IMG/VR virus record: IMGVR_UViG_3300034101_001503
Span: 1 to 44,811 of that record
DNA: 44,811 nt
Strand: one strand, 5' to 3'
Origin: a virus
Numbering within the stretch: position 1 is the stretch's first letter; the number at the start of each line of letters is the position of its first letter. The notes beneath the pieces are model-generated. The model worked only from the letters and a program-made list of their open reading frames with translations, had not been told where the DNA came from and did no database searches. This document shows positions 1 to 44,704 of the stretch, piece by piece. A program made the translations under genes and the position numbers.

Positions 1-127
1 TCGAACGTCTTGTTGTTCATTCCTCGACCCCTTCTGCGGCTTCGCCGCTCATCAAAAGTTCGTTCTCGTCCTGCTCCGCCGTCTGATCCCAGTTGGTCGC
101 GACGTGGTGCACCAGTGCAACCACCTC
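1..127. repeat. Terminal overlap, left copy
   Basis: This segment is identical to the last 127 bases of the window. A 127-bp identity is what a de Bruijn assembler run at k=127 leaves at the two ends of a circularised contig, so it is more likely an assembly overlap than a biological terminal repeat. The cut falls inside a gene, which also argues against a natural genome end. The real T7-style direct terminal repeats would be collapsed elsewhere, most plausibly in the gene-free region after the large terminase gene (about 3040-3700). Confidence 0.9.
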
Positions 128-313
128 TCGATGCTCACCGTTCCCGACCAGCCGCAGCGCAGCCATGACCGGATTACGCAGCCAGTCCACCACGAAAATC
201 GTGCGCTCTGAGCCATCTTCTGCCAGGATGTTGATCGCCTTCTCCCAATCGCCGTCCTCGTTGACCACCCACGCCGTCGCGACGGGGTACAGCAGACACT
301 GATTGCCCTTCAT
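17..313 (-). CDS. Hypothetical early protein, 98 aa
   Basis: I do not recognise this protein. The start is placed at the ATG whose complement is 311-313 because an AAGGAG ribosome-binding site lies about 6-7 bases upstream; a longer in-frame reading up to 349 has no such site. The product begins MKGNQCLLYPVAT, contains the segment ERTIFVVDWLRNPVMAALRL, and ends with an acidic tail. Its stop overlaps, as ATGA, the start of the 714-aa gene on the other side of the contig seam, so the two are probably translated in a coupled way. It is the first gene downstream of tRNA-Arg. No membrane segment or metal-binding motif is visible. Confidence 0.75.
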   Translation of the reverse strand: MKGNQCLLYPVATAWVVNEDGDWEKAINILAEDGSERTIFVVDWLRNPVMAALRLVGNGEHREVVALVHHVATNWDQTAEQDENELLMSGEAAEGVEE

Positions 314-376
314 AGCAGACTCCTTGGGGCCGTGCCCCGGTTCAGTCATTCACGCAGCCGACACGATATCGGCAAA

Positions 377-449
377 CACCCCGAGCAGGATTCGAACCTG
401 CAACCACCGGCTTAGAAGGCCGGTGCTCTATCCGTTGAGCTATCGGGGC
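377..449 (-). tRNA. tRNA-Arg (anticodon TCT)
   Basis: Read on the minus strand this folds as a normal 73-nt tRNA. It has a 7-bp acceptor stem (GCCCCGA with TCGGGGT, one terminal G-U pair), a D arm GCTC...GAGC, a 5-bp anticodon stem CCGGC/GCCGG with loop CTTCTAA, and a T arm GCAGG-TTCGAAT-CCTGC. The anticodon is TCT, which reads AGA. The discriminator is G and no CCA is encoded. Its 5' end lies five bases after the stop codon of the upstream zinc-finger gene, so it is probably cut out of the operon transcript by RNase P. It may supplement a codon that is rare in the host. Confidence 0.93.
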
Positions 450-454
450 AGCTC

Positions 455-664
455 TTATCTAGCCCGTTCGTAACCGCGACGGGCGATGCGGACCGCTTCC
501 TTGTCCCCACCGTCTACCATGACGATGTCGGGAGCGGTTTTATGCGAGAACACAAGAAAACCCACACGCTTCTGCTCAGTCGAGCAGCCCGTGCAGGTCG
601 TCGTGTGTGGTAGTATTTCTAGTCTGATTGGGTCAATCTCTGACCCGCACGACTCGCATTTCAT
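455..664 (-). CDS. Small zinc-finger protein, 69 aa
   Basis: The protein has two CxxC pairs, CESC near residues 3-6 and CTGC near 24-27, separated by about 20 residues. They are followed by a short basic/hydrophobic stretch (STEQKRVGFLVF), and together they form one four-cysteine zinc ribbon. Small phage proteins of this shape are often annotated as DksA/TraR-like or generic C4 zinc fingers. The long helical coiled coil of true DksA is absent, so a role at RNA polymerase is only a possibility. Its ATG overlaps the stop of the 76-aa gene as ATGA, and tRNA-Arg begins five bases after its own stop. Confidence 0.8.
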   Translation of the reverse strand: MKCESCGSEIDPIRLEILPHTTTCTGCSTEQKRVGFLVFSHKTAPDIVMVDGGDKEAVRIARRGYERAR

Positions 665-1031: not shown

Positions 1032-1309
1032 CACGCACCTCCAAACTGAATGAGGTTGTGGCGCCGCTTCTTCTCCTCATCTGACAGAGCAGCCCACTCA
1101 GCCGCTTCGGCGTCTCGCTTTGCAGCCAAAGCAGCCAGCCGGTAGTCTTCCTGCTCCTTGACCCACTCAGCATGGGCCAGGGCGTGCATCTCGCGCGCCT
1201 CCATCGACGCCCATGCCTCAGTTCTTTCCGGCGACATGCAGCGCAGACCGTTGATGAAACGGCTGCGCTTTGCCACAGACAGATTGTTCCACTTTCTTTC
1301 GTCCATCAC
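1028..1309 (-). CDS. Hypothetical early protein, 93 aa
   Basis: The protein is mostly charged and predicted helical. The N-terminal part (DERKWNNLSVAKRSRFINGL) resembles a short helical hairpin, and the C-terminal part is rich in Ala, Glu and Lys (LAALAAKRDAEAAEWAAL). I recognise no family. Its ATG overlaps the stop of the Csx16-like gene as ATGA, so it is translationally coupled to that gene and could act with it, but this rests on position only. A second methionine directly follows the first, so the exact start could shift by one codon. Confidence 0.7.
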   Translation of the reverse strand: MMDERKWNNLSVAKRSRFINGLRCMSPERTEAWASMEAREMHALAHAEWVKEQEDYRLAALAAKRDAEAAEWAALSDEEKKRRHNLIQFGGAW

Positions 1310-1674
1310 ACACCTTCCTTTCCGGAATAGGTGCCGCCCATTCCCTGATAGCCCGAGTCAAGGGCATCGTTGAGCAGCTCGCGCTGCTTCTCGAGCGTGC
1401 GGATCACGAAGGTCCGCAGCCCGACCATGTACTGCCGCACTTCGTCGGCAGAGAGCTCTGCTCCCCGCTTGTCTGCGGGGAGATTGAGGGTGACTTCTGT
1501 CACGCTGGCCGCACATGCGGCCAAGTGCAGCGGAAGGACGCCGTAGACATCCTTTCCGCGCACCGAGCCTTCCGTCGCGTGAGCGACAACCTCGCCCACG
1601 ATCCCGAAGTCCTGCGCGAGGACTTCGACCAGCCCGGCATGTCGGGTTACAATGACGATTTCACGCTGCTTCAT
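1306..1674 (-). CDS. Csx16-like protein (candidate ring nuclease, anti-CRISPR)
   Basis: This 122-aa protein carries the landmarks of the Csx16 (VVA1548) family of type III CRISPR accessory proteins: IVIVTRHAG at the N-terminus (first strand and TRH motif), a conserved His followed by a V-G-x-x-V-x-G-x-LP block (VYGVLPLHLAA), and the segment LNLPADKRGAELSADEV. Csx16 is one of the accessory families proposed to degrade cyclic oligoadenylate signals. In a phage such a protein would switch off type III CRISPR signalling, as the unrelated AcrIII-1 enzyme does; that role is inferred. The ATG at 1672-1674 is preferred over an upstream one because GGAG lies six bases before it. It is the first gene after a strong terminator. 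Confidence 0.75.
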   Translation of the reverse strand: MKQREIVIVTRHAGLVEVLAQDFGIVGEVVAHATEGSVRGKDVYGVLPLHLAACAASVTEVTLNLPADKRGAELSADEVRQYMVGLRTFVIRTLEKQRELLNDALDSGYQGMGGTYSGKEGV

Positions 1675-1737
1675 GTCACGCTCCTGACTTGCAGCCGATT
1701 GATTCACGAAACGATCGCGAAATGTCGGATGCTGAAA

Positions 1738-1773
1738 TGAAAATACCCCCGTCGACCGTTAGATCGACGGGGG
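1738..1773 (-). terminator. Strong rho-independent terminator
   Basis: A perfect 10-bp GC-rich stem (1746-1755 with 1764-1773) with an 8-nt loop is followed on the minus strand by TATTTTCATTT. It sits at the 3' edge of the gene-free structured region and about 65 bases before the Csx16-like gene. It would therefore end an upstream minus-strand transcript and give the presumed noncoding RNA a defined 3' end. Read-through or a separate promoter is needed for the operon below. Confidence 0.85.
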
Positions 1774-1918
1774 CAGAGTTGGCTTATTATGGCTAGCCTT
1801 CATATCATACCTATGGCATGATATAACTTCCCTTGAAGTTTGCCTGTCCTTATTAATTACAGCCGCCCCTGCTCGCTTGCGCTTAGAGGGGCAGCACGCC
1901 GTACAGCCTTACACGCGA

Positions 1919-3039: not shown

Positions 3040-3180
3040 CGGTCGTTTCCTAGGGGCCGCGCCCCGTTCGGGTTTCGTTCGCCCCTACCCGCAACGCGCG
3101 GAGAAGGGCGACAAGGGATCCTATCAAGTATCGACCGACGCACAAGGGATCTTGAACACAATCCCGAAAAAATGTCGCTC

Positions 3181-3232
3181 CCAGCTTGTGAATCTTTATG
3201 CATGAATGCATACATGATTATGCACAAGCTGG
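3181..3232 (-). repeat. 10-bp inverted repeat with inner hairpin
   Basis: The arms CCAGCTTGTG and CACAAGCTGG pair perfectly around an AT-rich loop that itself can form ATGCA-TTCA-TGCAT. On the minus strand a run of six T follows, but eight bases after the stem, so it is only weakly terminator-like. It could instead be a protein-binding or replication-origin element. Confidence 0.6.
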
Positions 3233-3345
3233 ATGCATCGTAGTATTATGAGCATAACATTAGGATCGTAGTGCTATGTTAGGTTGCATGATCCTAATAC
3301 TAAGGTACATCCTAATACTATGTCCCACAATCATAATATGTAAGG

Positions 3346-3415
3346 GAATCCGGCGTGGCTTACATTCTCCCATTGTCAACCTATCCGGCTAGGCTGACAC
3401 TTGCCTATTGTCAAC
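3346..3415 (-). repeat. Two imperfect 35-bp tandem repeats with TTGACA
   Basis: On the minus strand two 35-bp units follow each other, each starting GTTGACAAT and sharing GG, TGT, AGCC and GCCGGAT at the same positions. TTGACA matches a consensus -35 box in both units (3409-3414, 3374-3379), but no convincing -10 hexamer lies 16-18 bases downstream. They may be host promoters with an unusual -10, or repeated binding sites. Confidence 0.6.
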
Positions 3416-3434
3416 TCCGGCCAGGGCATTAGAC

Positions 3435-3450
3435 AAAAAGGGGAAGCCCC
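3435..3450 (-). terminator. Weak candidate terminator after the late genes
   Basis: On the minus strand GGGG-CTT-CCCC is followed directly by TTTTTG. The stem is only 4 bp, so strength is doubtful. Its place downstream of the large terminase gene would suit the end of late transcription. Confidence 0.35.
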
Positions 3451-3694
3451 AGCTCACCCCCATGCAGGCCCATCGTACCCCCACCGGCCCCCTTCGAGAT
3501 CCAATGATCCCGCAGGTAGGGGGCACGGGGGGAGACGACTGCAGTTGGTGGCTTCATGCCCTCGTTCGAATCAGTGACCCCATGTCGATTTTCCATCGGA
3601 TGGTCCGCACGTCGAACTAGGTTGACGGGGTGGATCCTTAGCACGGCCCATAGGTACCCATAGTATCTAGTAGATCTATAGGAGAGTTCGGGCT

Positions 3695-3719
3695 TCGCCC
3701 TCACTCTAGTCGGCTCAAA
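3695..3719 (-). promoter_or_regulatory. Putative phage RNA polymerase promoter (site D)
   Basis: On the minus strand this reads TTTGAGCCGACTAGAGTGAG..., matching the element at 41127-41151 for its first 13 bases. It overlaps the stop codon of the large terminase gene and points into the leader and early region. The putative +1 region folds into a short hairpin (3683-3707) with GA/GA mismatches. It is the most divergent of the four copies after position 13. Confidence 0.5.
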
Positions 3720-5412
3720 CCCCCCATCGGGTTCTCACCCCACGTCCTCTGTTCCATTCCTCACGGGCTCTACGACCCAGAAGTCCTCCTGTGACAGGCA
3801 GGACCCATCGGCTTGGAGTAGGCTTCTTGTATTCCTTCAGGAACTCCTTAGCTACCTGCTCCACCTTGGCGGTATCCATGTCCTGGATCCTACGACTACT
3901 GTCCAACGCCATCTGATCCTTGAACCAAGCCACAGCTCCAGCCATGGCCTCGATCTGATCGTCATGCCTGAGTGAACCCCTGTCACGGGTGATTCGTGTG
4001 ATCTGATTCCCCAGGACCATGTTGCTGGCTACCTTGTGGGAGATGCAGATCCTGTGCTGGGCCATTGCAGGCTCCAGGGTGTCGATGATCCGGATCTCCT
4101 TCTGACCGGTGTTCCTCTTCTCCTCAACCGCGATGTTCCCGACACGCAGGAGATGGGGGATCAGCAGCTTGGCGTACATTCCGTCGCCCCAGTTGCTCTC
4201 GACCACCACCGCCTTGACGTTGTGGAACGCAGCGATGTCAGCCAGCTTTCCGAGGACTGAATCCTCATGTCCTCCATCCAGGCCATCGCACTCCGGGATG
4301 TGGATCAGTCCGTTCAGGATCCTAGCCACGCAGTATCCCGTCTGATCCTCTCCACGGCCTGCAGGATCGACATACATGATCGTGTTCTCGTACTCCTCCC
4401 ACCTGTTGTCTTGGTATACGGCTCCGTTGAACCTGTCTCCTGACAATCCCGGACATTCGATCTGTACGGGATTGGTGGTTCCCCAGATCATGTTCCTGGG
4501 TGCCTGGTTACCTGCCATGTCCCACACGATGAAGTTGCTCAGCTTCAGCGGATACCTGTCACGATCGCTGAGCGTCGTGTCGAGCAGCATCTGAAGGGCG
4601 AACATCGAGGGGCCCATGATGGCCTCTCTCTCGATCAGCAGGTCGTCCGGATAGTAGGACGGGTAGGTCGGATCTCCCGGCTTGACGTCACCATCAATCA
4701 GGTCCTCCAGCAGCATCGGAGCGATCCTCTGCATGGATGCCTCGTCGTTCGGATCTGGATACCGGGCAGGCCACTTCATGCACTCGTAGTGAGCCGCCAG
4801 TCGATTGTAGACCGAGTCCTCCGACTGTGGGGTTCCCAGGTAGATGATGTCCCCGCCTGGATTCAGGATGTTCTCGAACTCCCGGAGCCGAGACATCAGC
4901 ATGTCGCGTGCCTCGACGGTTCGGCTGTTGTCCGGGATCTCCACGTCGTCGTTGATGATGACGTCCACGTGGGTACCGGTGATCATGCTCTTGATTCCGT
5001 ACGCCGCCACGGAGGGGTTCTTGGACGGGGTGGTCCTGCACCCGACGTCGAACCGGTCGGCACCATCTCGGTCCCATTCACCGGGACGGAGGTGCTGGAG
5101 CTCGTCCATGCTGTCGATCAGCTTCCTGGTCAGCAGGATGAACTCCCGGGCTCTGGTCTGGACAGCCGACACGCACAGGATCGTCGTATCGGGATTACGG
5201 TACAGCCTCCATGCGGCATAGGTGGCCGTCAGGTACGACTTGCCGAATCCTCGCATGGCCTGGATCATCCGTCGCTCGGGACCGCTCTGCAGGTAGCTGG
5301 CCACGTCGTACTGGATCCGGGCAGGCTCCGGAAGCCCCAGGGTCTGCCACGCCCGGAACACGAAGTTCCGGAAGTCGTCCCTCAGCATGTCTGCGTATTC
5401 GTTATTGGTCAT
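3715..5412 (-). CDS. terL: Terminase large subunit (T7 gp19-like)
   Basis: This is the 565-aa DNA-packaging motor; T7 gp19 is 586 aa. The N-terminal ATPase has the Walker A loop RGFGKS (residues 54-59) and the Walker B segment VDVIINDDVE (149-158). The C-terminal RNase H-like nuclease shows YVDPAGRGED (347-356), with Asp349 as likely metal ligand. It translocates DNA into the prohead through the portal and cuts the concatemer. AGGAG lies about ten bases before the ATG. A 137-nt gap separates it from the small subunit, where T7 carries its spanin gene; none is found here. It is the last late gene. Confidence 0.96.
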   Translation of the reverse strand: MTNNEYADMLRDDFRNFVFRAWQTLGLPEPARIQYDVASYLQSGPERRMIQAMRGFGKSYLTATYAAWRLYRNPDTTILCVSAVQTRAREFILLTRKLIDSMDELQHLRPGEWDRDGADRFDVGCRTTPSKNPSVAAYGIKSMITGTHVDVIINDDVEIPDNSRTVEARDMLMSRLREFENILNPGGDIIYLGTPQSEDSVYNRLAAHYECMKWPARYPDPNDEASMQRIAPMLLEDLIDGDVKPGDPTYPSYYPDDLLIEREAIMGPSMFALQMLLDTTLSDRDRYPLKLSNFIVWDMAGNQAPRNMIWGTTNPVQIECPGLSGDRFNGAVYQDNRWEEYENTIMYVDPAGRGEDQTGYCVARILNGLIHIPECDGLDGGHEDSVLGKLADIAAFHNVKAVVVESNWGDGMYAKLLIPHLLRVGNIAVEEKRNTGQKEIRIIDTLEPAMAQHRICISHKVASNMVLGNQITRITRDRGSLRHDDQIEAMAGAVAWFKDQMALDSSRRIQDMDTAKVEQVAKEFLKEYKKPTPSRWVLPVTGGLLGRRAREEWNRGRGVRTRWGV

Positions 5413-7883: not shown

Positions 7884-10800
7884 TACTTGAATCTCTCCAT
7901 TAGGAGCCTGGAGTACCAGGAGTTTACAACCGGTGTGTGTCCCTTGACGATGTTGTACATCGCCTCGTCGGGCTCTTCCTTGAAGAACCTGCCGACCGTC
8001 TGATTGTAGGTCGACAGGATGGTGCTGATCGAGCTGTTGCCTCTGGTGGAATCAAAGTTGAGATCACCAGGGGTAAAGGCATCGATCATCGACATGTAGG
8101 TGCTGTGGTGACCACCGAGCCACGGAGACTTCAGCCCGTTCTTGAAGTAGAACGCCGCCGGGTTGGTCTCGTAGTCGGAGATCACGTCATCCCATGTCTT
8201 CTTTCCCTTGGCCACGTCACGCGAGTTCTGGTAGATGGTCTCTCCCAGCATGACGGCACCGAACGTGAGGGCTGCTGCTTGCAGCGGCATGTTCGTGGCA
8301 CCGCGCATGGCGACGGTGGTGGCAAAGGATCTGCTGTACGAAGTGAGCTGGAAGAAGAGACGTCCAAGCGCATTCGCAACAGGAACCGACTGGGCAATGC
8401 CAGCGGTGGGAACGTGGAAGTTGTGGGCATCCGTCAGATAGCTGACAAGTCCCATGTATGCACGGTCTCCAAGACCATGCAGTCTGTTCAACTCGAACAC
8501 TCCGCTAGGGGACACCCCTGGGAGCGAGAGGGCGTTCTCAAGCTGATCCACGACCTCCCTGTTGAGGAGGCCACTGTGGTTCATCCTAAGGGCGACATCG
8601 TATGAGATACCGGCTCTGGAGCACGCATCCCGGAACCGTCTGGCGGTCTCGGGAGTCTGGCGTGCGACAGGACCGATGGCTTCGAGTTCCTGAACAAGCG
8701 TTCGCATCCCACCGATGCTGTTCATCAGGTGGCGCTTCGCCATTCTGTCTGCCGTGATACGAGCAACGCCCGAGGCCCACTGGAGCAGACCGCCTCTGAC
8801 GGCTGTCTCTCCGAGCGCCTCGATTCCAGCGATTGCCGATCCCTTGACGCGGCCCATGGTCTGGTTGGTGCCGTAGTTGAGCTCATGCTCGGCTCCGGTC
8901 ACGACGTTCCTGAATCGGCGCCAGGGCTCGACGAACCGATCCCACATGGTGAGACCGACCGACGATCCGGCTCCGACGTGGGAGTGGGTCATGGTGGTGT
9001 ACTGGTCGACGGCATGCGCAATGTCCTGCATCGCGTTGATGTCGTTGGTGCGCCACAGTGCCTGCATGGCCTCGAGGACGCCTCTGATCGGACCGCCGTG
9101 GCGGTTGGCAAAGGCGGCTCTCGGAACCTCTCCGACGGTACCGGCAAGACCCCAGAACGAACCGGTGGCAGTTTTGATCAGTCCTGCGCCTGCACGGAAG
9201 GACGTGTCAAGCATGTCGGTGTGGGTGTACTGGGTTCTACCGAAGGCCATGTCGGCCTTCTCGCGGACAAGACGGACGATGTTCGCCGCCTCAGCCGTGA
9301 TCTCGGGATCACCGACAGCAGCAAGCCGCTCGGCGACAATGTCGAGGAGCTCGTTGTAGGTGACGTTGGTCTGACCCGTCAGACGACACAGCTGGGCCTG
9401 GAACATGAGTTCAGGACCGGTCGTGTGGATGTACTGACGGAGACCTTCCAGGGGATTCTGGATGAAGTACTCGCTGAGACGGGGATCTGAGAACGTATCG
9501 TTGTCAAGGACTCGACCGCGTGCGGAGTTGGTGGAGTGCGTGTAGCGCCATCCTCCCATTCCGTCCGTGGTCATGGAGTTGCTGAGCCTGTTGACCGACT
9601 CCGTTCCCATGCGGGTGGCATGGGCATCGATGATGGGACCAAGAGTGGCTTCCATCGACGGATCGTAGGCGGTTCCTCTGGCAAGTCCTGCCTCGTCGCA
9701 GATCTCGGGAGTCAGCTCCTGTCCCGGTCGGCGCATGCGGTCTGCATACACGTCTCGGAACTGCTGTGCTGCCCTTGTTCTGTTTCCTGCAATCTGATCG
9801 ACGACCGGAAGGCGAGGACGGTAATGCTCGACCTGAGGATCGCGTCCGTGGACGGTCCTGTAGGCATCTGCATACGCATCGTACGCTTCTCGGAGTCGTG
9901 TGTAGACATCTAGTTCTCCACCCCTGAGGGCAGAGACATCTCCACTGTCTAGGGCTGCGTTGATTCTTGCAAACGCATCCGGAGTGCTGTGGCTGAGACC
10001 TGCTGCCTGTGCTGCACCTGCGGCACGGTTCAGGTACATCTTGCCCTTGCTTCTGTAGGTCTCGAGCGTATGGACAACATTGCCGACAAGGCCATGCGAC
10101 CGCTCAAGCGCCTCAGGCCTGTCAAGCATGTTGAACACGGTGACAAGTAGGTCAAGGTCACGGGACACGGCATGGACCTTTCCGAATCCAGTGCCGATCG
10201 TCATGAGCCTGAGCATCTGGCCACCGAGCCGTCTGAAGAACGGACTCTGGGCCATGCTGGCCATCAGTCTGTTGGTGGCGACGATTCTATCGCCTTCACC
10301 TCCGGAGACCGATCCAAGCCAATCTGCAAGAGCACTCTTTCTATCGTCTGCGGTTTCCTTGGCAGTCGCCTTTTCAGGGGTTGCCTTCTTGGCCTTGGCG
10401 GCTGCTTCCTTGACAGTCATTTGAGGATCGGAGACGACCTTCTTGAAGCGGTGTGCTTCAAATCCAGACGTCAAGTCTGGATAGAGTGTAGGTTCTTCTC
10501 TTGCAATCTCATCGATCGTGTTCATCACGCGATCAAGTTGAGTTTCTTCTCTGGTTCCTCTCTTGATGCCAAGAAGATCCTTAACAAGATCCACAAACTC
10601 TTCCCATGCGCTTCTGTTGGTATCCTTTAGCTTGATGCTTTTCAGTAGATCTCTAAACCCTGAATCAGAGTAGGCTTGAGCCATGAACTCGTCAAGGTTT
10701 CGCATGGCATATTCAGTGCCAGTTGCCCTGTCAATCAGCCTACCACCTCTAAGGTTGGCTTCTCCACCGGCGTTTAACGTTCTGGCTAGATCGGAATCGG

Positions 10801-35773: not shown

Positions 35774-38194
35774 TCAGGAAAAGAAGAACGTTGATCGAAG
35801 AACAGCGCTAATGTCCAACGTTCCAGACGGTGGGAGATCTTGGGTCTTGTAACCCGTTTGCTCGACGGAGTCGATGAACAACTTGAGGATGTCGTTTGAG
35901 TGCATCCTGACGAACGACTCGCGGATCTTAACGCCCAGCTCGTCAACATCACAGGCATGGCAGCCGAATGAGTCATGCACGAACTGGTGGTCGGTGATGC
36001 CAGCCGCATTGGCGTTGAGGACCGTGTCGACAAGATGCGATGCGTCGAGGGAGTGGATGAAGTTGGCCACGATCCCACGAACCTGGGCAGACGCACTGAC
36101 ATCGTTGTCGTTGGTTGGAACCTGAACGGAGATTCTAGCCAGACATGTCCTAACCTCCTTTGACTCCCGTACGAAGTAGTGCATGGATACCGGGAAGCCC
36201 GACGGGGCGACCCATGCGATGGGCTTGCCGAGCTTGGCCGTGTCGTCGGCCACTTTTCTGAACCAGTCCATCAGTCTGCCTGCCGAGATGACGACATCAC
36301 GAACGGCAACATCGATCTTCTCGGCCAGGTACCATGCGTTCCTGTGACGGCTACCGGCAATGCCGTCGGTGAAGCCATCTACGATCAGTCCGTCTCGCAT
36401 TCCGGCCTTCGTCACGCCGTACGGGTATGCGAGAACAGAACGCTTGACGATCGATCTGCGCTTCTTCCTGACCTCCAGCAGCGGATGCCACACAAGCGGA
36501 GGAACAGGTTGTCCCATCTCGTCCTTCACCTCTCCGGTTGCCGCAACCATCTCAGCATCACCGCACACGGCGGCATAGACAAGATCGGCTACATCGGCAT
36601 ACAGATCGGATGGAACGATACCATCGGTCAGATTGACCGCAGCTCCACCTTCGGCATCTCGGCCTAGTGCAGACAGATGCTGAAGGCCGTTCTGAGATCC
36701 ATCTACACATACCGAGACGCAGGACATGAACTCCGTCGGCTTGCCGGTCTGATACGCCTCCTTGAGCTCCAGCATGGCCTGAACAAACAGCATCGGGCTG
36801 TCGTACCCCGCCCACCTGAGGTCGACATCGGGGTCGAACTTCAGGTAGTTGTAGTTGTCATCCAGCCACTTGATCCGGTCTTCGATGGAGATCTTGTCCT
36901 GTCCTGCACACGAAGCAGCCCAGATCTTCATCCTTCTCAGGCCCTTGTCCCCAAGCCGCTTGCGGCGACCGTAGACAAGCAGGGCCTTCTGAAGATCGGA
37001 ACCCTGAGGAGACAGGTAGGACGTCAGCGGGTAGATCCTGCCACGCCAATCCAGGTTGTGTGGAAACCAGATCGGAGCATTGAGGAACATGCCAGCCGCC
37101 CTCAGCGCCTTCATGCAGACCATTCTTACCGAAGCCTTGGCCTTGAATGCGGCTAGGATCTGGGCCTTGTCCTGATGCCAGATGCGCTTCTGCTCCTTGG
37201 TGCCATCTGTCGGGAACGGAGGCAGCTTCGGAGCTGTACCGATGAACGGGATGACCTCGTCGTACTGTGTGCTCTTGCTGATCGACAGAGCGAGATCGTA
37301 GATCCGCTTGTCGATCCTCCACTCGACGGACTGGATGGAGTTCAGTGCCGCAAGCACATTGCGCATGTCGGCCTTGCCGTAGTCGACAGGGTGCTCTCCA
37401 AACTTGTCCCTGACAAGAGGCTGCTTGATGAGGCGATAGCCGCCGACGAAGCTGCTGCCGACCATCGACCAATCCACTGGAGGACAGGTCATCGGCTGAC
37501 ATACGGGCCGCAGGATCTCGAGTTCGGAGTGGGACGAGAGCACCAGTTCGATGATCTCGTCCGACATCGTGATCCATGTCGTCGTCTTCTTTCCATCACG
37601 CTTTCGGTCGATGCCCCACAGTCCAGTTGCCATGACGGCCTGTTGGATGAGGCGACATCCGATGCCGAGCCGCTGGTTGTACGTCCACTCCAACGGCTTC
37701 GAGCAGAGTTTCTTGTACAGCTTCCGAACCTTGGTCCTGTCGTTCAGCAGTGCGCTGAAGTTCCTGCTGAATCCCTTCTTGTCCTTCTCGGCTCCTCTGT
37801 TCTTGGCCCTGATCTCGTCGAACTCATGCTCCAGCTTGACCCTGTCCGCGATCGTGAATGCGGTCTTGGACAGCTTGGAGTCCTCGATCGACATCATGCA
37901 CGATAGGGTGATCAACGCCATCTTGTCGGGATCCATCGTCAGGTAGGCCGCAGCCCACTGCTGAGGACGACCTCCTACAGCCCTGCCTTCCATCAGGAGG
38001 CGCTGGTCCTCCTCGATGGCAGACGAGACACGGTCGAACACCGACTTGATCAGCTTGCGAGAGGGTCGGTCGATGTCCTGATGCTCAACCGACCTGCGGT
38101 ATCGCGCGACTCCCTGCTCGATCCCGTCGATCTCCTGCTCGTCATTGAGGACTGTCAGCCTCGTCTTCTCTTCGTCCGTCAGGTCTTTCCACAT
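35774..38194 (-). CDS. DNA-directed RNA polymerase, single subunit (T7 gp1-like)
   Basis: The 806-aa enzyme (T7: 883 aa) has all palm and finger landmarks: VDGSQNGLQHLSA with Asp498 (T7 Asp537), KRSVLAYPYG with Lys584 and Tyr592 (T7 Lys631 and Tyr639, same spacing), and HDSFG with Asp741 (T7 Asp812). It transcribes middle and late phage genes, probably from the four motifs listed here as sites A-D. It overlaps the HNH nuclease gene by 53 nt and its ribosome-binding site is weak. Confidence 0.98.
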   Translation of the reverse strand: MWKDLTDEEKTRLTVLNDEQEIDGIEQGVARYRRSVEHQDIDRPSRKLIKSVFDRVSSAIEEDQRLLMEGRAVGGRPQQWAAAYLTMDPDKMALITLSCMMSIEDSKLSKTAFTIADRVKLEHEFDEIRAKNRGAEKDKKGFSRNFSALLNDRTKVRKLYKKLCSKPLEWTYNQRLGIGCRLIQQAVMATGLWGIDRKRDGKKTTTWITMSDEIIELVLSSHSELEILRPVCQPMTCPPVDWSMVGSSFVGGYRLIKQPLVRDKFGEHPVDYGKADMRNVLAALNSIQSVEWRIDKRIYDLALSISKSTQYDEVIPFIGTAPKLPPFPTDGTKEQKRIWHQDKAQILAAFKAKASVRMVCMKALRAAGMFLNAPIWFPHNLDWRGRIYPLTSYLSPQGSDLQKALLVYGRRKRLGDKGLRRMKIWAASCAGQDKISIEDRIKWLDDNYNYLKFDPDVDLRWAGYDSPMLFVQAMLELKEAYQTGKPTEFMSCVSVCVDGSQNGLQHLSALGRDAEGGAAVNLTDGIVPSDLYADVADLVYAAVCGDAEMVAATGEVKDEMGQPVPPLVWHPLLEVRKKRRSIVKRSVLAYPYGVTKAGMRDGLIVDGFTDGIAGSRHRNAWYLAEKIDVAVRDVVISAGRLMDWFRKVADDTAKLGKPIAWVAPSGFPVSMHYFVRESKEVRTCLARISVQVPTNDNDVSASAQVRGIVANFIHSLDASHLVDTVLNANAAGITDHQFVHDSFGCHACDVDELGVKIRESFVRMHSNDILKLFIDSVEQTGYKTQDLPPSGTLDISAVLRSTFFFS

Positions 38195-38513: not shown

Positions 38514-38728
38514 GGGATGTTACCGATGTGCAGATGGCCTGGCCCGTTGCCTTCGGGGTCGCTGAGGAACACCAGTTCCTTCTTCGATCCGTTAGGCAGC
38601 TTGATGATCAGTCCGCAGTAGACATCCGGATCATCCTCGGAATCAACCACGATGGAGACGATCTTTGCTCCGATGAGGGGAAGAAGGCGCTCCTTGTGGT
38701 ACTCGAATGCGTCGTTGTTATTACTCAT
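38510..38728 (-). CDS. Hypothetical protein, 72 aa
   Basis: The small protein (AKIVSIVVDSEDDPDVYCGL in the middle) looks like a compact beta-rich domain with an acidic loop. No family is recognised. A strong AAAGGAG site lies five bases before its ATG, and it overlaps the methyltransferase gene by 8 nt and the HNH gene by 4. Confidence 0.68.
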   Translation of the reverse strand: MSNNNDAFEYHKERLLPLIGAKIVSIVVDSEDDPDVYCGLIIKLPNGSKKELVFLSDPEGNGPGHLHIGNIP

Positions 38729-39650
38729 GGTGCTCCTTTAGAAATGCATATGCGTTTCTGCCCAACCACTCGGCAACATTCACGGTGACTGCGTTGCCCA
38801 ATTGCTTGTATCGAACCGTATTAGATTGACCTTCGGTCCAATTGTCAGGAAAACCCTGAAGACGTTCGCACTCCAACGGAGTCAGCAGCCTGACTTCGTC
38901 CTGCCCGTTTCTATTGATTGCGATGTAGTGACCCACACGAACACTTTCGGCATACTGCTTTGGAATATGGCATGTAAGACAGCCTACGATGCCATTTAGG
39001 GCGTCCCTGTCGATTACTTCTGTGTGAGTCTCCGGCCCACACTTTCCAGGGCCTCTCGAATCACTGGCTTGAGTCGCTTGCCTCGTGTGTCCGCTCTCCT
39101 CAGCAGCCCGATCGATGCTGTCGGAGAAAGAAAGAACCGACTCGACGCATCCTCTTGTAGGACCTGCCACAATGAAGACACGACGGCGTCTCTGGGGTAC
39201 TCCGAAATGCTGACTGTCCAGAACTCTCCATCCGACTTCCGCACCAGACCAGCATGTGGCCAACTCACGGATGACTTCAGCAAAATCGTGTCCGTTATTG
39301 CTGCACAGCAGTCCTGGGACATTTTCGAGTATGACGAGTCTAGGATTGACGTCTCGAACAACCCTGACTGCTTCATGGAACAATCCAGATCTTTCACCAG
39401 CCAATCCTTTCTTGTATCCTGCGATGGACACATCTTGACATGGAAATCCGCCATAGATTACATCGACGTCGTCGAGAACCTTCGATGATACGGTGCGGAT
39501 ATCTCCGTACAGGGATGCGGACGGAAACTTGCCGGCAAGCAGCGCTTGGCAGGAGGCATCGTTCTCTACGCACCATTCCACGGAAAAGCCGGCGCGTTCA
39601 AATCCAACATCAAAGCCACCGATTCCGGAGAACAGGGAGCCTGCTTTCAA
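38721..39650 (-). CDS. DNA cytosine-5 methyltransferase
   Basis: The 309-aa enzyme has the ordered motifs of C5 methyltransferases: FSGIGGFDVGFERAGF (I, SAM binding), GGFPCQDVSIAG with catalytic Cys71 (IV), LENVPG with Glu109 (VI), QRRRRVF (VIII), LLTPLECERLQGFPDNW (IX region) and QLGNAVTVNVAEWLG (X). All are intact, so it is probably active. No restriction nuclease partner is adjacent, so it is an orphan enzyme, most likely protecting phage DNA from host restriction. The target sequence cannot be read from the gene. Confidence 0.94.
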   Translation of the reverse strand: MKAGSLFSGIGGFDVGFERAGFSVEWCVENDASCQALLAGKFPSASLYGDIRTVSSKVLDDVDVIYGGFPCQDVSIAGYKKGLAGERSGLFHEAVRVVRDVNPRLVILENVPGLLCSNNGHDFAEVIRELATCWSGAEVGWRVLDSQHFGVPQRRRRVFIVAGPTRGCVESVLSFSDSIDRAAEESGHTRQATQASDSRGPGKCGPETHTEVIDRDALNGIVGCLTCHIPKQYAESVRVGHYIAINRNGQDEVRLLTPLECERLQGFPDNWTEGQSNTVRYKQLGNAVTVNVAEWLGRNAYAFLKEHHE

Positions 39651-41618: not shown

Positions 41619-42563
41619 TCAGTGCCACCAATCCTTGTCGTCCATGTCGTCGAGAACTCTACGCTTCCACTCGCTATCGCTGAAAGTGTCGGGATCGCCC
41701 GATTTGCGGAACAGCCAGCTATAGCCGTAGTTGTCTTCCTCCACCTCAAGCGCCGGATTGCGGCTTGGCATCGGAATGCCATAGCCATCTCGGCACAGCA
41801 GGATCAGAGCAATGCACAGGTCGTACGCAAACTCGACGTCCTGCTGCTCATCGTTCGTGTGTTGCTTGAAGTAACCGACCGAGATGTTGGTGCACTCGGG
41901 GATCACATCGGAGAACTCACGACTGTCTGTGAACACGCCGGTGTTGTCCGGCGAGTACTGAAACGATGGGTTCAGGTCATTGAGTCGACCAGCCAACTCA
42001 GCAGCCCATGCGTCGGATGCCGTACGCGATCCGCACTGATGGGTGATGATGCTGGTGTAGCCCTTGCGGTCGAGCGAGATGCAGCAGTCATAGACACCCA
42101 ACTCGCACTCCTTGGCCAATGCCTTGGACCCTAGACAGCCGACCTCCTCGCCACAGAAGAACACATAGTGGCCAGGAACACCGGCGCGAATCATCATGCA
42201 CATGATGGTCACGCCAGTCTTGTCGTCCGCACCTAGGATCGACTTCTTGTCGGTGCCGACCAGATCGCCGTCCCACACGAACTTGACGGCAGTCGGATCC
42301 CTGTCGGCGGTGTCGCAGTGCGACGTCCACATGACATTCGGGCCGTCGTATCCTGTCGGATACGGAACCCAGACATGCCAGTTTCCGTGCTCGTCGATCC
42401 ACTGCTCGGCCTTGCGGTAGCCAGGGCCGCAGTCAGGAGCAGCCCCACGGGGAGGAATAGGCAGGAACGCCCACACGAACGGCTCGTAGCCGTGCGGCGT
42501 GGTCATCCTGCACATGTTGAGGAAGGTGTCTGTGAACAGTCGCTTCGAGGGAAGCCACATCAT
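41619..42563 (-). CDS. M28/M42-like zinc metallopeptidase
   Basis: The 314-aa protein has the ordered ligands of co-catalytic zinc peptidases: SHCDT with His82 and Asp84, GADDKTGV with Asp113/Asp114, GEEVG with Glu139/Glu140, SLDRKG with Asp165, and a late His235-Glu239 (KQHTNDE). Family enzymes are aminopeptidases or deacylases. A phage copy in the early region could degrade a host peptide, but the substrate is unknown. The start overlaps the 714-aa gene stop as ATGA. An intracellular role is likely, as no signal peptide is seen. Confidence 0.85.
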   Translation of the reverse strand: MMWLPSKRLFTDTFLNMCRMTTPHGYEPFVWAFLPIPPRGAAPDCGPGYRKAEQWIDEHGNWHVWVPYPTGYDGPNVMWTSHCDTADRDPTAVKFVWDGDLVGTDKKSILGADDKTGVTIMCMMIRAGVPGHYVFFCGEEVGCLGSKALAKECELGVYDCCISLDRKGYTSIITHQCGSRTASDAWAAELAGRLNDLNPSFQYSPDNTGVFTDSREFSDVIPECTNISVGYFKQHTNDEQQDVEFAYDLCIALILLCRDGYGIPMPSRNPALEVEEDNYGYSWLFRKSGDPDTFSDSEWKRRVLDDMDDKDWWH

Positions 42564-44704
42564 GCATCTCCATTCGTGAGCCAGTGCTGGATCATCTCGG
42601 CTGTTGGCGTTTCGCCGTTAGCCTTCTTCTGGTAGAACTTCTTGGTTGCACGCTCGAAATCGGCAGCGCCAGGGTACACAGGCACTGTCATTTCGATCAT
42701 GCGACGTCCATGCCAATCGTACGCAGCAACAACCATGTTGTCGCTGGACACGATGAAGTACAGGTCTCCGGAGCTGCTGTATCGAACAGTACCAATAAGC
42801 CGCTTCTTCGCGAATCCCATCATGCGAAGCGTATGCGACTCCATCCATCCAGTTGTAGCGGTTCCAGGATATGCCTGTTCGATGCGATTGAGCATTCCAA
42901 GGCTACCTGAGTCCTCCAGCATCTCCTCCAGCCTGTTGATACTGGTCATGCTTGGAGCGCAGTACGACGAGTCGACTGCCTTTGCCGTGATCTCCGACAT
43001 GACGAGCGGACTGTAGAAACACTCATGCGACGCGTACATCGACTGACTTGACCATGAAATGTACCGACGCACACCGTCGAGGTTGTCCGGGTAGCTCCAT
43101 GTGTTGCAGCCCCGCACCTTCCAGTTACCATCAATCACAGCCCATTCCGGCTTGTTGAAGTACAGCGTAGCCAGGGTCATCTCGTCGCTGCCAAGGAAGA
43201 GACGGATGCGGCCAGTTCCTTCGTCCCACTTGATGGTGGGCTGGATGTGGCAGCGATTAGTCAGTCGATGATCGATGGAAACCAGCTCCTCCTCGCCGTC
43301 GCGCATCGTCACGGTAGTCGCTGTCCACGACCACTCGTCGACCTCGACGAATCCGAACCACATGTCCATTCCTGTGCCAACAACGGTCAGCTTCTTCGTG
43401 ATGTGCACCGGCTCGTCATCTCCGGTATCCCACCAGAGGTGGCCGTCACCAGTCGAGACCGCTTCCTGCTCAGGGACGAAGACCTCGTCACCATCTTTGG
43501 TCTCAGCCAAGACAAACGAAGTACGGCGGTACGAGTCGAACTCCCGACTGGCGTAGCCGTGATAGTTTCCGCACCGCGACCGCACCTCGATTGCGTTGTC
43601 AGACAAGACCGAGATGTCCTCGAACTCGCAGTAGACCGAGTCGCGATAGCAGCAGGGACAGCAGTCCCCGACGTCGTTGATGTAGCCCGACTCGTCGTCT
43701 TCTGAATTGTATGATTCGCCGCAGTGTGCACAGCGCACATCGCTATCGTCAAAGCCTGATCCATACGGATCCGTGGCGTGCGCGTACGCGCTATCCCAGT
43801 ATGGGTGCGGATTCTCGCCCATGTAGATGCATGCCGTGTTGCCCTGATGCACCAGCTCGAGATCTCCGTCGAGATACGGAGTCCAGTTGTTTGGGCCCTT
43901 CCGGACATGCACCCAACCAGTCGGGGTGTCGTACCAGTGCTTGACACCCAGCTTGTCGAGGTGGTTTCTGACGTGGGCAAGTGTCGTCTGGTCGTCACAA
44001 CAACCCATCGACATCCCTCTGCTGTAGATGCGGATGTACTTCCATCCCGCACCGATCTCAGCCGGAATTTCGTCAGACAGCGTGACCTTCTTGTCGTGGA
44101 TCGGCTTGAACAGCATGACACGAGCATATGGCAGTCCGTCGTTGTAGAGGACTGCCAACGCGATCTGCGACGGGTTGCCAGCGTACAGCTCCGTGTATTT
44201 GGAACGGTGCCCTGTCATGCAGGACGTTGACCAGTTTTCCATCTCGCGATACTGGTCGACGATGTCGGTTCCGTGGAAACATTTCATTTCCAACTTCACG
44301 GAACTCATCTTCGCAGCCCAGTCCCTGACGACGATATCCGCGTCAGTTGGGTCAATGCCAGCCTCGACCAGCAGCGTCGCTAGGTTCATGGACTTGCGAG
44401 TGCGCCGACAGTTCGGCACCTCCGGAAAGAACGTCGAAGTCCACTCATGCTGCGGCGGACTGCGCCACTCCTCGCACTTGGGAGCGAAGAATGAGTGAAC
44501 GACGACACGCCGTGGGTCTTCATCGACCCACTCGATGGTTTTGGTCAGCGTGTATGCCCCGGTGTACTCTCCCACCGAATAGTCGTCCAGCTCCTTCCGG
44601 ACGAAAGCCCCGGTACGGAGATTGTAGTACATCTCGTCGGTCATGCGGCCAGCCATGCTGGTCGCCGCGCTGTGAGCGAAGTGCTCGAACGTCTTGTTGT
44701 TCAT
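42560..44704 (-). CDS. Large hypothetical protein with cysteine-rich insert, 714 aa
   Basis: I do not recognise a named family. The segment STSCMTGHRSKYTELYAGNP near residues 164-183, followed by ALAVLYNDGLPYARVMLF, resembles a block seen in several large unknown phage proteins. Near the middle is a cysteine cluster (CAHCGESY, then CCPCCY about 25 residues on) that could bind zinc. The rest is rich in Trp, Asp and Tyr. There is no membrane segment. The start ATG overlaps the 98-aa gene across the contig seam. Confidence 0.82.
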   Translation of the reverse strand: MNNKTFEHFAHSAATSMAGRMTDEMYYNLRTGAFVRKELDDYSVGEYTGAYTLTKTIEWVDEDPRRVVVHSFFAPKCEEWRSPPQHEWTSTFFPEVPNCRRTRKSMNLATLLVEAGIDPTDADIVVRDWAAKMSSVKLEMKCFHGTDIVDQYREMENWSTSCMTGHRSKYTELYAGNPSQIALAVLYNDGLPYARVMLFKPIHDKKVTLSDEIPAEIGAGWKYIRIYSRGMSMGCCDDQTTLAHVRNHLDKLGVKHWYDTPTGWVHVRKGPNNWTPYLDGDLELVHQGNTACIYMGENPHPYWDSAYAHATDPYGSGFDDSDVRCAHCGESYNSEDDESGYINDVGDCCPCCYRDSVYCEFEDISVLSDNAIEVRSRCGNYHGYASREFDSYRRTSFVLAETKDGDEVFVPEQEAVSTGDGHLWWDTGDDEPVHITKKLTVVGTGMDMWFGFVEVDEWSWTATTVTMRDGEEELVSIDHRLTNRCHIQPTIKWDEGTGRIRLFLGSDEMTLATLYFNKPEWAVIDGNWKVRGCNTWSYPDNLDGVRRYISWSSQSMYASHECFYSPLVMSEITAKAVDSSYCAPSMTSINRLEEMLEDSGSLGMLNRIEQAYPGTATTGWMESHTLRMMGFAKKRLIGTVRYSSSGDLYFIVSSDNMVVAAYDWHGRRMIEMTVPVYPGAADFERATKKFYQKKANGETPTAEMIQHWLTNGDA

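Follow-up and report, generated by a model that had tools for sequence, protein, structure and literature searches.

The Csx16-like gene and its early operon

The window, i.e. the whole stretch of 44,811 nt analysed here, is a virus record whose leftward early operon opens with a gene encoding a Csx16-like protein (see Table 1 for coordinates). Both ends of the window carry an exact 127-bp repeat, indicating that the record is complete and that the early genes of the left end run on at the right end. The gene set comprises a single-subunit RNA polymerase of the T7 type, a primase/helicase, a DNA polymerase, an exonuclease and capsid, connector, tail and terminase genes. Since the RNA polymerase displays ca. 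30% identity with its nearest GenBank phages and the terminase 40-43% with the nearest known phages, the virus is regarded as a divergent T7-like phage; a pattern search of IMG/VR found no relatives of its RNA polymerase. The preliminary description had assigned the gene to a phage and to an early operon, and both assignments agree with this organization: the end repeat and the RNA polymerase, terminase, DNA polymerase, capsid and tail genes on the one hand, and the first position of the Csx16-like gene in the operon on the other.

Table 1. Location of the Csx16-like gene and of the associated features in the window
Feature	Position	Strand	Comment
110-aa early protein	17..349	minus	no assigned function; runs into the genome join
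tRNA-Arg (TCT)	376..450	minus	embedded in the early protein operon
DksA/TraR-type zinc-finger protein	455..664	minus	same early operon
Second operon gene, 92 aa	1028..1306	minus	no family; follows the Csx16-like gene
Csx16-like (PF09652) gene, 122 aa	1306..1674	minus	ATG at 1674, TGA at 1308-1306
Codons of conserved residues	R11-H12, 1644-1639; G45-x-L47-P48, 1542-1531; R70-G71, 1467-1462	minus	
Shine-Dalgarno AGGAG	1681..1685	minus	six bases ahead of the Csx16-like ATG; sequence inspection
Element (G/A)T(C/A)AATCGGCTGC	1691..1703, 1919-1931, 2295-2307	minus	first copy just ahead of the Csx16-like gene
Strong intrinsic terminator	1744..1775	minus	14-bp stem and T-rich tail; pattern match
Terminase large subunit	3715..5412	minus	final late gene; phrog_38, E=1.4e-102
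RNA polymerase, T7-type single-subunit	35774..38194	minus	marks the end of the early region; phrog_414, E=1.4e-168
714-aa early protein	42560..44704	minus	no assigned function; first past the 127-bp join

The Csx16-like ORF is a true coding gene and not a chance frame. Its GC content at the three codon positions is 0.72, 0.41 and 0.74, and comparison with its nearest full-length relative (L009, carried by a 68-kb virus) gave a dN of 0.49 for a dS of 1.48, the latter being close to saturation, with 68, 68 and 34% identity at codon positions 1, 2 and 3, respectively. These values indicate that the gene is under purifying selection. The three peptide blocks from which Csx16 had been recognised in the preliminary description, which named no strand, were found on the minus strand (MKQREIVIVTRHAGL, KDVYGVLPLHLAA and LPADKRGAELSADE). 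An overlapping ORF on the plus strand (1270-1740, TTG start) was discarded as a shadow of the gene.

The Csx16-like stop codon and the ATG of the following 92-aa gene share one base (TGATG), which suggests that translation of the two genes is coupled. At the tRNA-Arg located further down the operon, a second Rfam match was rejected because it is antisense to the tRNA and falls under its cut-off. The terminator just ahead of the operon is predicted to insulate it against upstream transcription and is itself preceded by a mostly non-coding region. The element (G/A)T(C/A)AATCGGCTGC has six matches in the window at two mismatches or fewer, versus 1.55 expected by chance; three minus-strand copies lie upstream of the early operon, only weaker matches occur elsewhere, and a role as an early promoter or control site is possible. 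Word counts across the window brought out no clear general phage promoter.

Other features of the window are worth recording. Two long stretches (1740-2740 and 3040-3700) are mostly gene-poor for a phage, and the true genome ends may lie within them; an exact 41-base direct repeat occurs at 2536-2576 and 2632-2672. In the AT-rich segment upstream of the terminator (1780-1870), an ATATCAT...ATGATAT inverted repeat seen by eye could correspond to an operator. Finally, a C5-cytosine DNA methyltransferase, possibly involved in anti-restriction, is encoded shortly ahead of the RNA polymerase gene (38721-39650).

Family assignment and the virus-type branch

The window protein matches Pfam PF09652 (Cas_VVA1548/Csx16) with 67 bits (E=1.7e-18), well beyond the gathering cut-off of 25, and fails the NCBIfam TIGR02620 (Csx16) cut-off of 46.35 with 26.1 bits (E=7.7e-6), a shortfall attributed to its position in a divergent branch. 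The preliminary description is thus borne out in calling the protein Csx16-like at profile level, with a score above the cut-off of the first model and under that of the second. In PF09652 searches, CRISPR-linked Csx16 from two Cas10-bearing records reached 114 and 134 bits, for 55-75 in viral sequences. Profile-profile comparison of 21 sequences of the mobile-element type with five CRISPR-type Csx16 (four from CRISPR-annotated plasmid loci and one from a Cas10-linked locus in genome G279) returned a probability of 99.2 (E=6.8e-20). Because homology is secure at profile level and the curated equivalog test failed, the protein was filed as a Csx16-like member of PF09652 belonging to a separate branch. 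A PHROG family search with the protein gave no match. Sequence matches in the PDB to designed ankyrin proteins were set aside, since the short 'GVLPLHLAA' resembles many ankyrin repeats and most of these matches are insignificant singly.

The predicted structure (pLDDT 90.7, pTM 0.74) consists of five strands with flanking helices, a modelled layout that agrees with Csx16 as described (PMC12409355), for which a CARF-like fold with a five-stranded sheet is expected. A Foldseek search of this model against the PDB and viral models (BFVD) gave no match below E=0.001 and hence no independent confirmation of the fold.

After deduplication, 79 further IMG/VR contigs were found to carry a gene of the same branch, giving 80 with the window, some of these contigs being short and possibly derived from plasmids or prophage remnants. 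Adding one canonical-type viral sequence (L139) brought the alignment to 81 viral sequences, which form 72 clusters when grouped at 90% identity. Scans began from mobile-type queries, so that such counts are biased towards that type; a canonical Csx16 query retrieved one viral contig only. The canonical-type sequence (L139, 5001-5279) lies in a 111-kb record and is the sole canonical-length Csx16 found on a viral contig. Six other loci (L010, L016, L017, L021, L023 and L030) have the Csx16-like domain inside longer frames with additional N- or C-terminal parts, which may represent fusions.

The branch is marked by the loss of a four-residue segment, containing an R-G and located between helix 3 and strand 4, that is missing in 80/80 viral sequences of the branch and present in all five CRISPR-type Csx16 as well as in the archaeal viruses Drs3 and PhiF3. 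The Tyr that follows this segment, constant in the CRISPR-linked Csx16 examined, is mostly Val in the virus branch, and the Asp of a G-D pair is mostly Lys, Arg or Gln. Almost without exception, the 80 viral sequences retain the R-H, G-x-L-P and R-G motifs, the few departures being partial or confined to a single residue. In trees, CRISPR-type Csx16 group with L139, Drs3 and PhiF3 on one side and the remaining sequences on the other; support for this split is 92/82 in the smaller tree, where it holds for a group of 24 mobile-element rows that does not include the archaeal plasmid, and 88 in the larger one. The window gene and L009, whose products have similar C-terminal tails, pair as sisters with a support of 94/84, or 96 when the larger tree is considered. 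With an alignment of ca. 100 columns, the inner branching order is not settled and the root is not fixed. As judged from these alignments, there is a mobile-element branch of Csx16 characterised by segment loss, a point absent from the preliminary description. In the open-access literature, to which the search was confined, no paper was found that sets viral Csx16 apart as a distinct branch, nor any biochemistry on this branch; phage Csx16 itself has been reported and what appears to be new is a widespread virus-specific branch.

Genomic surroundings of the branch

Canonical Csx16 accompanies Cas10 on two plasmids and, in genome G279, on a shared contig. Cas10 (PF22335) was detected in none of the 72 virus records with a branch gene (the window and 71 others), a terminase of one family being present in 41 of the 71 records tested; it was likewise absent from Drs3 and PhiF3 and from four plasmids with PF09652 genes, three of which are typed with conjugation genes. 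Csx16 is expected to be encoded within or close to a type III CRISPR locus, an association that the gene lacks, there being no Cas10 in the window. On plasmid pMESIL02, two Csx16-like genes occur without Cas10 (L005, 10013-12028, and L039, 7989-8774), and one of the products is a 671-aa protein whose gene adjoins an ankyrin-repeat gene.

A scan of 84,980 cellular genomes, made with a pattern set that differed from that used on the viral collection, yielded two matches to the branch, both inside integrated elements: L029 adjoins a serine recombinase gene, and L030 belongs to an element with an integrase beside secA. In each of the two genomes, a Cas10 whose GGDD is intact lies on a different contig, surrounded by Cmr-like genes, and one of these two loci adjoins a 27-repeat array. 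Of the 199 genomes of the phylum to which the L030 host belongs, 17 have strong Cas10 matches (at least 80 bits), as do two of the ten of the other host's thinly sampled group. The presence of Cas10 in both cellular hosts is suggestive, the sample being tiny. The 26 spacers found next to the Cas10 of genome G002, the only array examined, had no convincing match to the resident element or to the viral loci. In the integrated element of L029, two PF09652 matches are adjacent (9998-10282 and G001:C42:15374-15616), the second being weak and located in a 354-aa frame.

Candidate function and comparison with known systems

Csx16 has been demonstrated to be a cA4-specific ring nuclease that cuts neither cA6 nor cA3, and has been modelled as a dimer whose conserved residues surround the nucleotide site (PMC12409355). 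The earlier statement that Csx16 is proposed to destroy cyclic oligoadenylates is thus outdated: destruction is established for cA4, and does not extend to the two other messengers. Given that the virus branch retains the invariant residues of the family, the best reading is that the window gene encodes a candidate virus-type cA4 ring nuclease used as an anti-CRISPR, to which we assign a probability of roughly two in three; the gene therefore stands as a reasonable type III anti-CRISPR candidate, as first suggested. The losses of the segment and of the Tyr and the replacement of the Asp by Lys, Arg or Gln weigh against this reading, since specificity or activity may have changed with them. The score under the TIGR02620 cut-off, the Foldseek search without a match below E=0.001 and the single spacer array, in which nothing pointed to exposure of the phage to a type III system, also count against it.

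As the first gene of an early operon, the Csx16-like gene would be expressed early, probably soon after DNA entry. Its product would most likely form a homodimer binding the cA4 made by activated host Cas10, and would cut it to linear products by attack of the ribose 2'-hydroxyl, probably without metal, with the invariant H12 and R11/R70 as putative catalytic residues. By analogy with AcrIII-1 and Crn4, in which an essential histidine acts as general acid (PMC12830947), H12 could play this part. Removal of cA4 would keep the effectors that it activates off. The present data establish homology to Csx16, retention of the invariant residues, the phage and early-operon setting, recurrence in many viruses and mobile elements devoid of Cas10, and selection on the protein. 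Cleavage of cA4 by Csx16 comes from the literature (PMC12409355), whereas the activity and substrate of the virus branch are inferred, as are dimerisation, the residues involved in catalysis and an advantage during infection.

The main rivals are two unlikely readings of similar standing. In the first, the protein would bind cA4 or another cyclic oligoadenylate tightly and cut it slowly or not at all, in the manner of the phage sponges Tad and Acb or of Csx15, another CARF-like protein, which sponges cA4 well and is very slow as a ring nuclease (PMC13148439). The region ahead of strand 4, unlike that of canonical Csx16, would fit such a protein; the retention of R-H, G-x-L-P and R-G throughout the branch argues against it, and sponging is ill-suited to type III systems because cA4 levels are high (PMC13148439). 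In the second, segment loss would have retuned the Csx16 scaffold to degrade cA3, cA6 or the cyclic nucleotides of CBASS. That the deletion is branch-wide and co-segregates perfectly with the substitutions is in line with this, as is the precedent of Crn4, a small ring nuclease that can be broad (PMC12830947); however, both cellular hosts found carry a Cas10 with GGDD, and the remaining conserved core is that of a cA4-specific family. A third reading, quite improbable, sees a CRISPR-derived protein turned to an unrelated use in the phage, such as the binding of RNA, of a protein or of a host factor, with no nucleotide degradation; several viruses and pMESIL02 do have the domain within longer open frames, and the window phage has no known type III host, yet conservation centres on motifs common to the enzyme family. 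Recent capture of a host Csx16 as functionless cargo, which has no direct support beyond the rarity of the gene among known phages, is already disfavoured to the point of being very hard to sustain given purifying selection, the operon-first place with a ribosome-binding site and a virus-dominated branch as diverse as its 72 clusters.

In a virus-type cA4 ring nuclease, the segment missing between helix 3 and strand 4 may affect which substrate is cut, or how fast. A broader proposal, for which the odds are about even, is that the deep virus/conjugative-element branch, which has a fixed four-residue deletion, was found on 80 viral contigs or more and in no case next to Cas10, constitutes a widespread viral ring nuclease family not separated until now, possibly altered in specificity or turnover for attack and not for resetting the cell's own alarm. 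If the branch is active, viral destruction of cA4 would be far commoner than indicated by the published survey, in which Csx16 was counted in 2 of 28,114 phage genomes (PMC12409355). Cell and virus versions a small deletion apart would then form a natural pair with which to ask how a housekeeping off-switch becomes an anti-CRISPR, and the gene would provide a marker to find viruses facing type III immunity.

By its first place in the early region, the window gene resembles T7 gene 0.3 (Ocr), a comparison limited to position with no claim of sequence kinship. Gene 0.3 is the first early gene of T7 and encodes an anti-restriction protein which is made on DNA entry and blocks host defence, Ocr being a DNA mimic directed against restriction enzymes.

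With Csx16 (PMC12409355), the window protein shares homology across residues 8-90, the R-H, G-x-L-P-x-x-L and R-G-x-x-L motifs and, in its model, an equal number of strands and helices. It differs by lacking the four-residue segment and the subsequent Tyr, by a Thr in place of Ser before R-H, by Lys/Arg/Gln in place of the Asp of the G-D pair, by a C-terminal tail of ca. 30 residues, by the absence of a nearby Cas10 and by its score under the TIGR02620 cut-off. Drs3 and PhiF3 of Methanobacterium, which are probably the two phage cases of the published survey, likewise encode PF09652 proteins outside CRISPR loci; unlike the window protein, these have a canonical length and group with CRISPR-type sequences, which points to a probable separate capture.

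The presumed job of the window protein, viral removal of cA4, is that of AcrIII-1/Crn2 (DUF1874), a separate family to which the protein had no match up to E=10. The suggestion that it would be a second solution after AcrIII-1 does not hold, since it is preceded by the viral SAVED ring nuclease AcrIII-2 (PMC12751052), by phage-borne Crn4 (PMC12830947) and by the two phage genomes in which Csx16 was already counted (PMC12409355). AcrIII-2 is a 230-residue double-CARF SAVED protein close to the SAVED domain of CalpL (PMC12751052), and the window protein has no match to a SAVED domain; the likeness between the two would lie in a virus having taken a CRISPR signalling domain for anti-CRISPR use.
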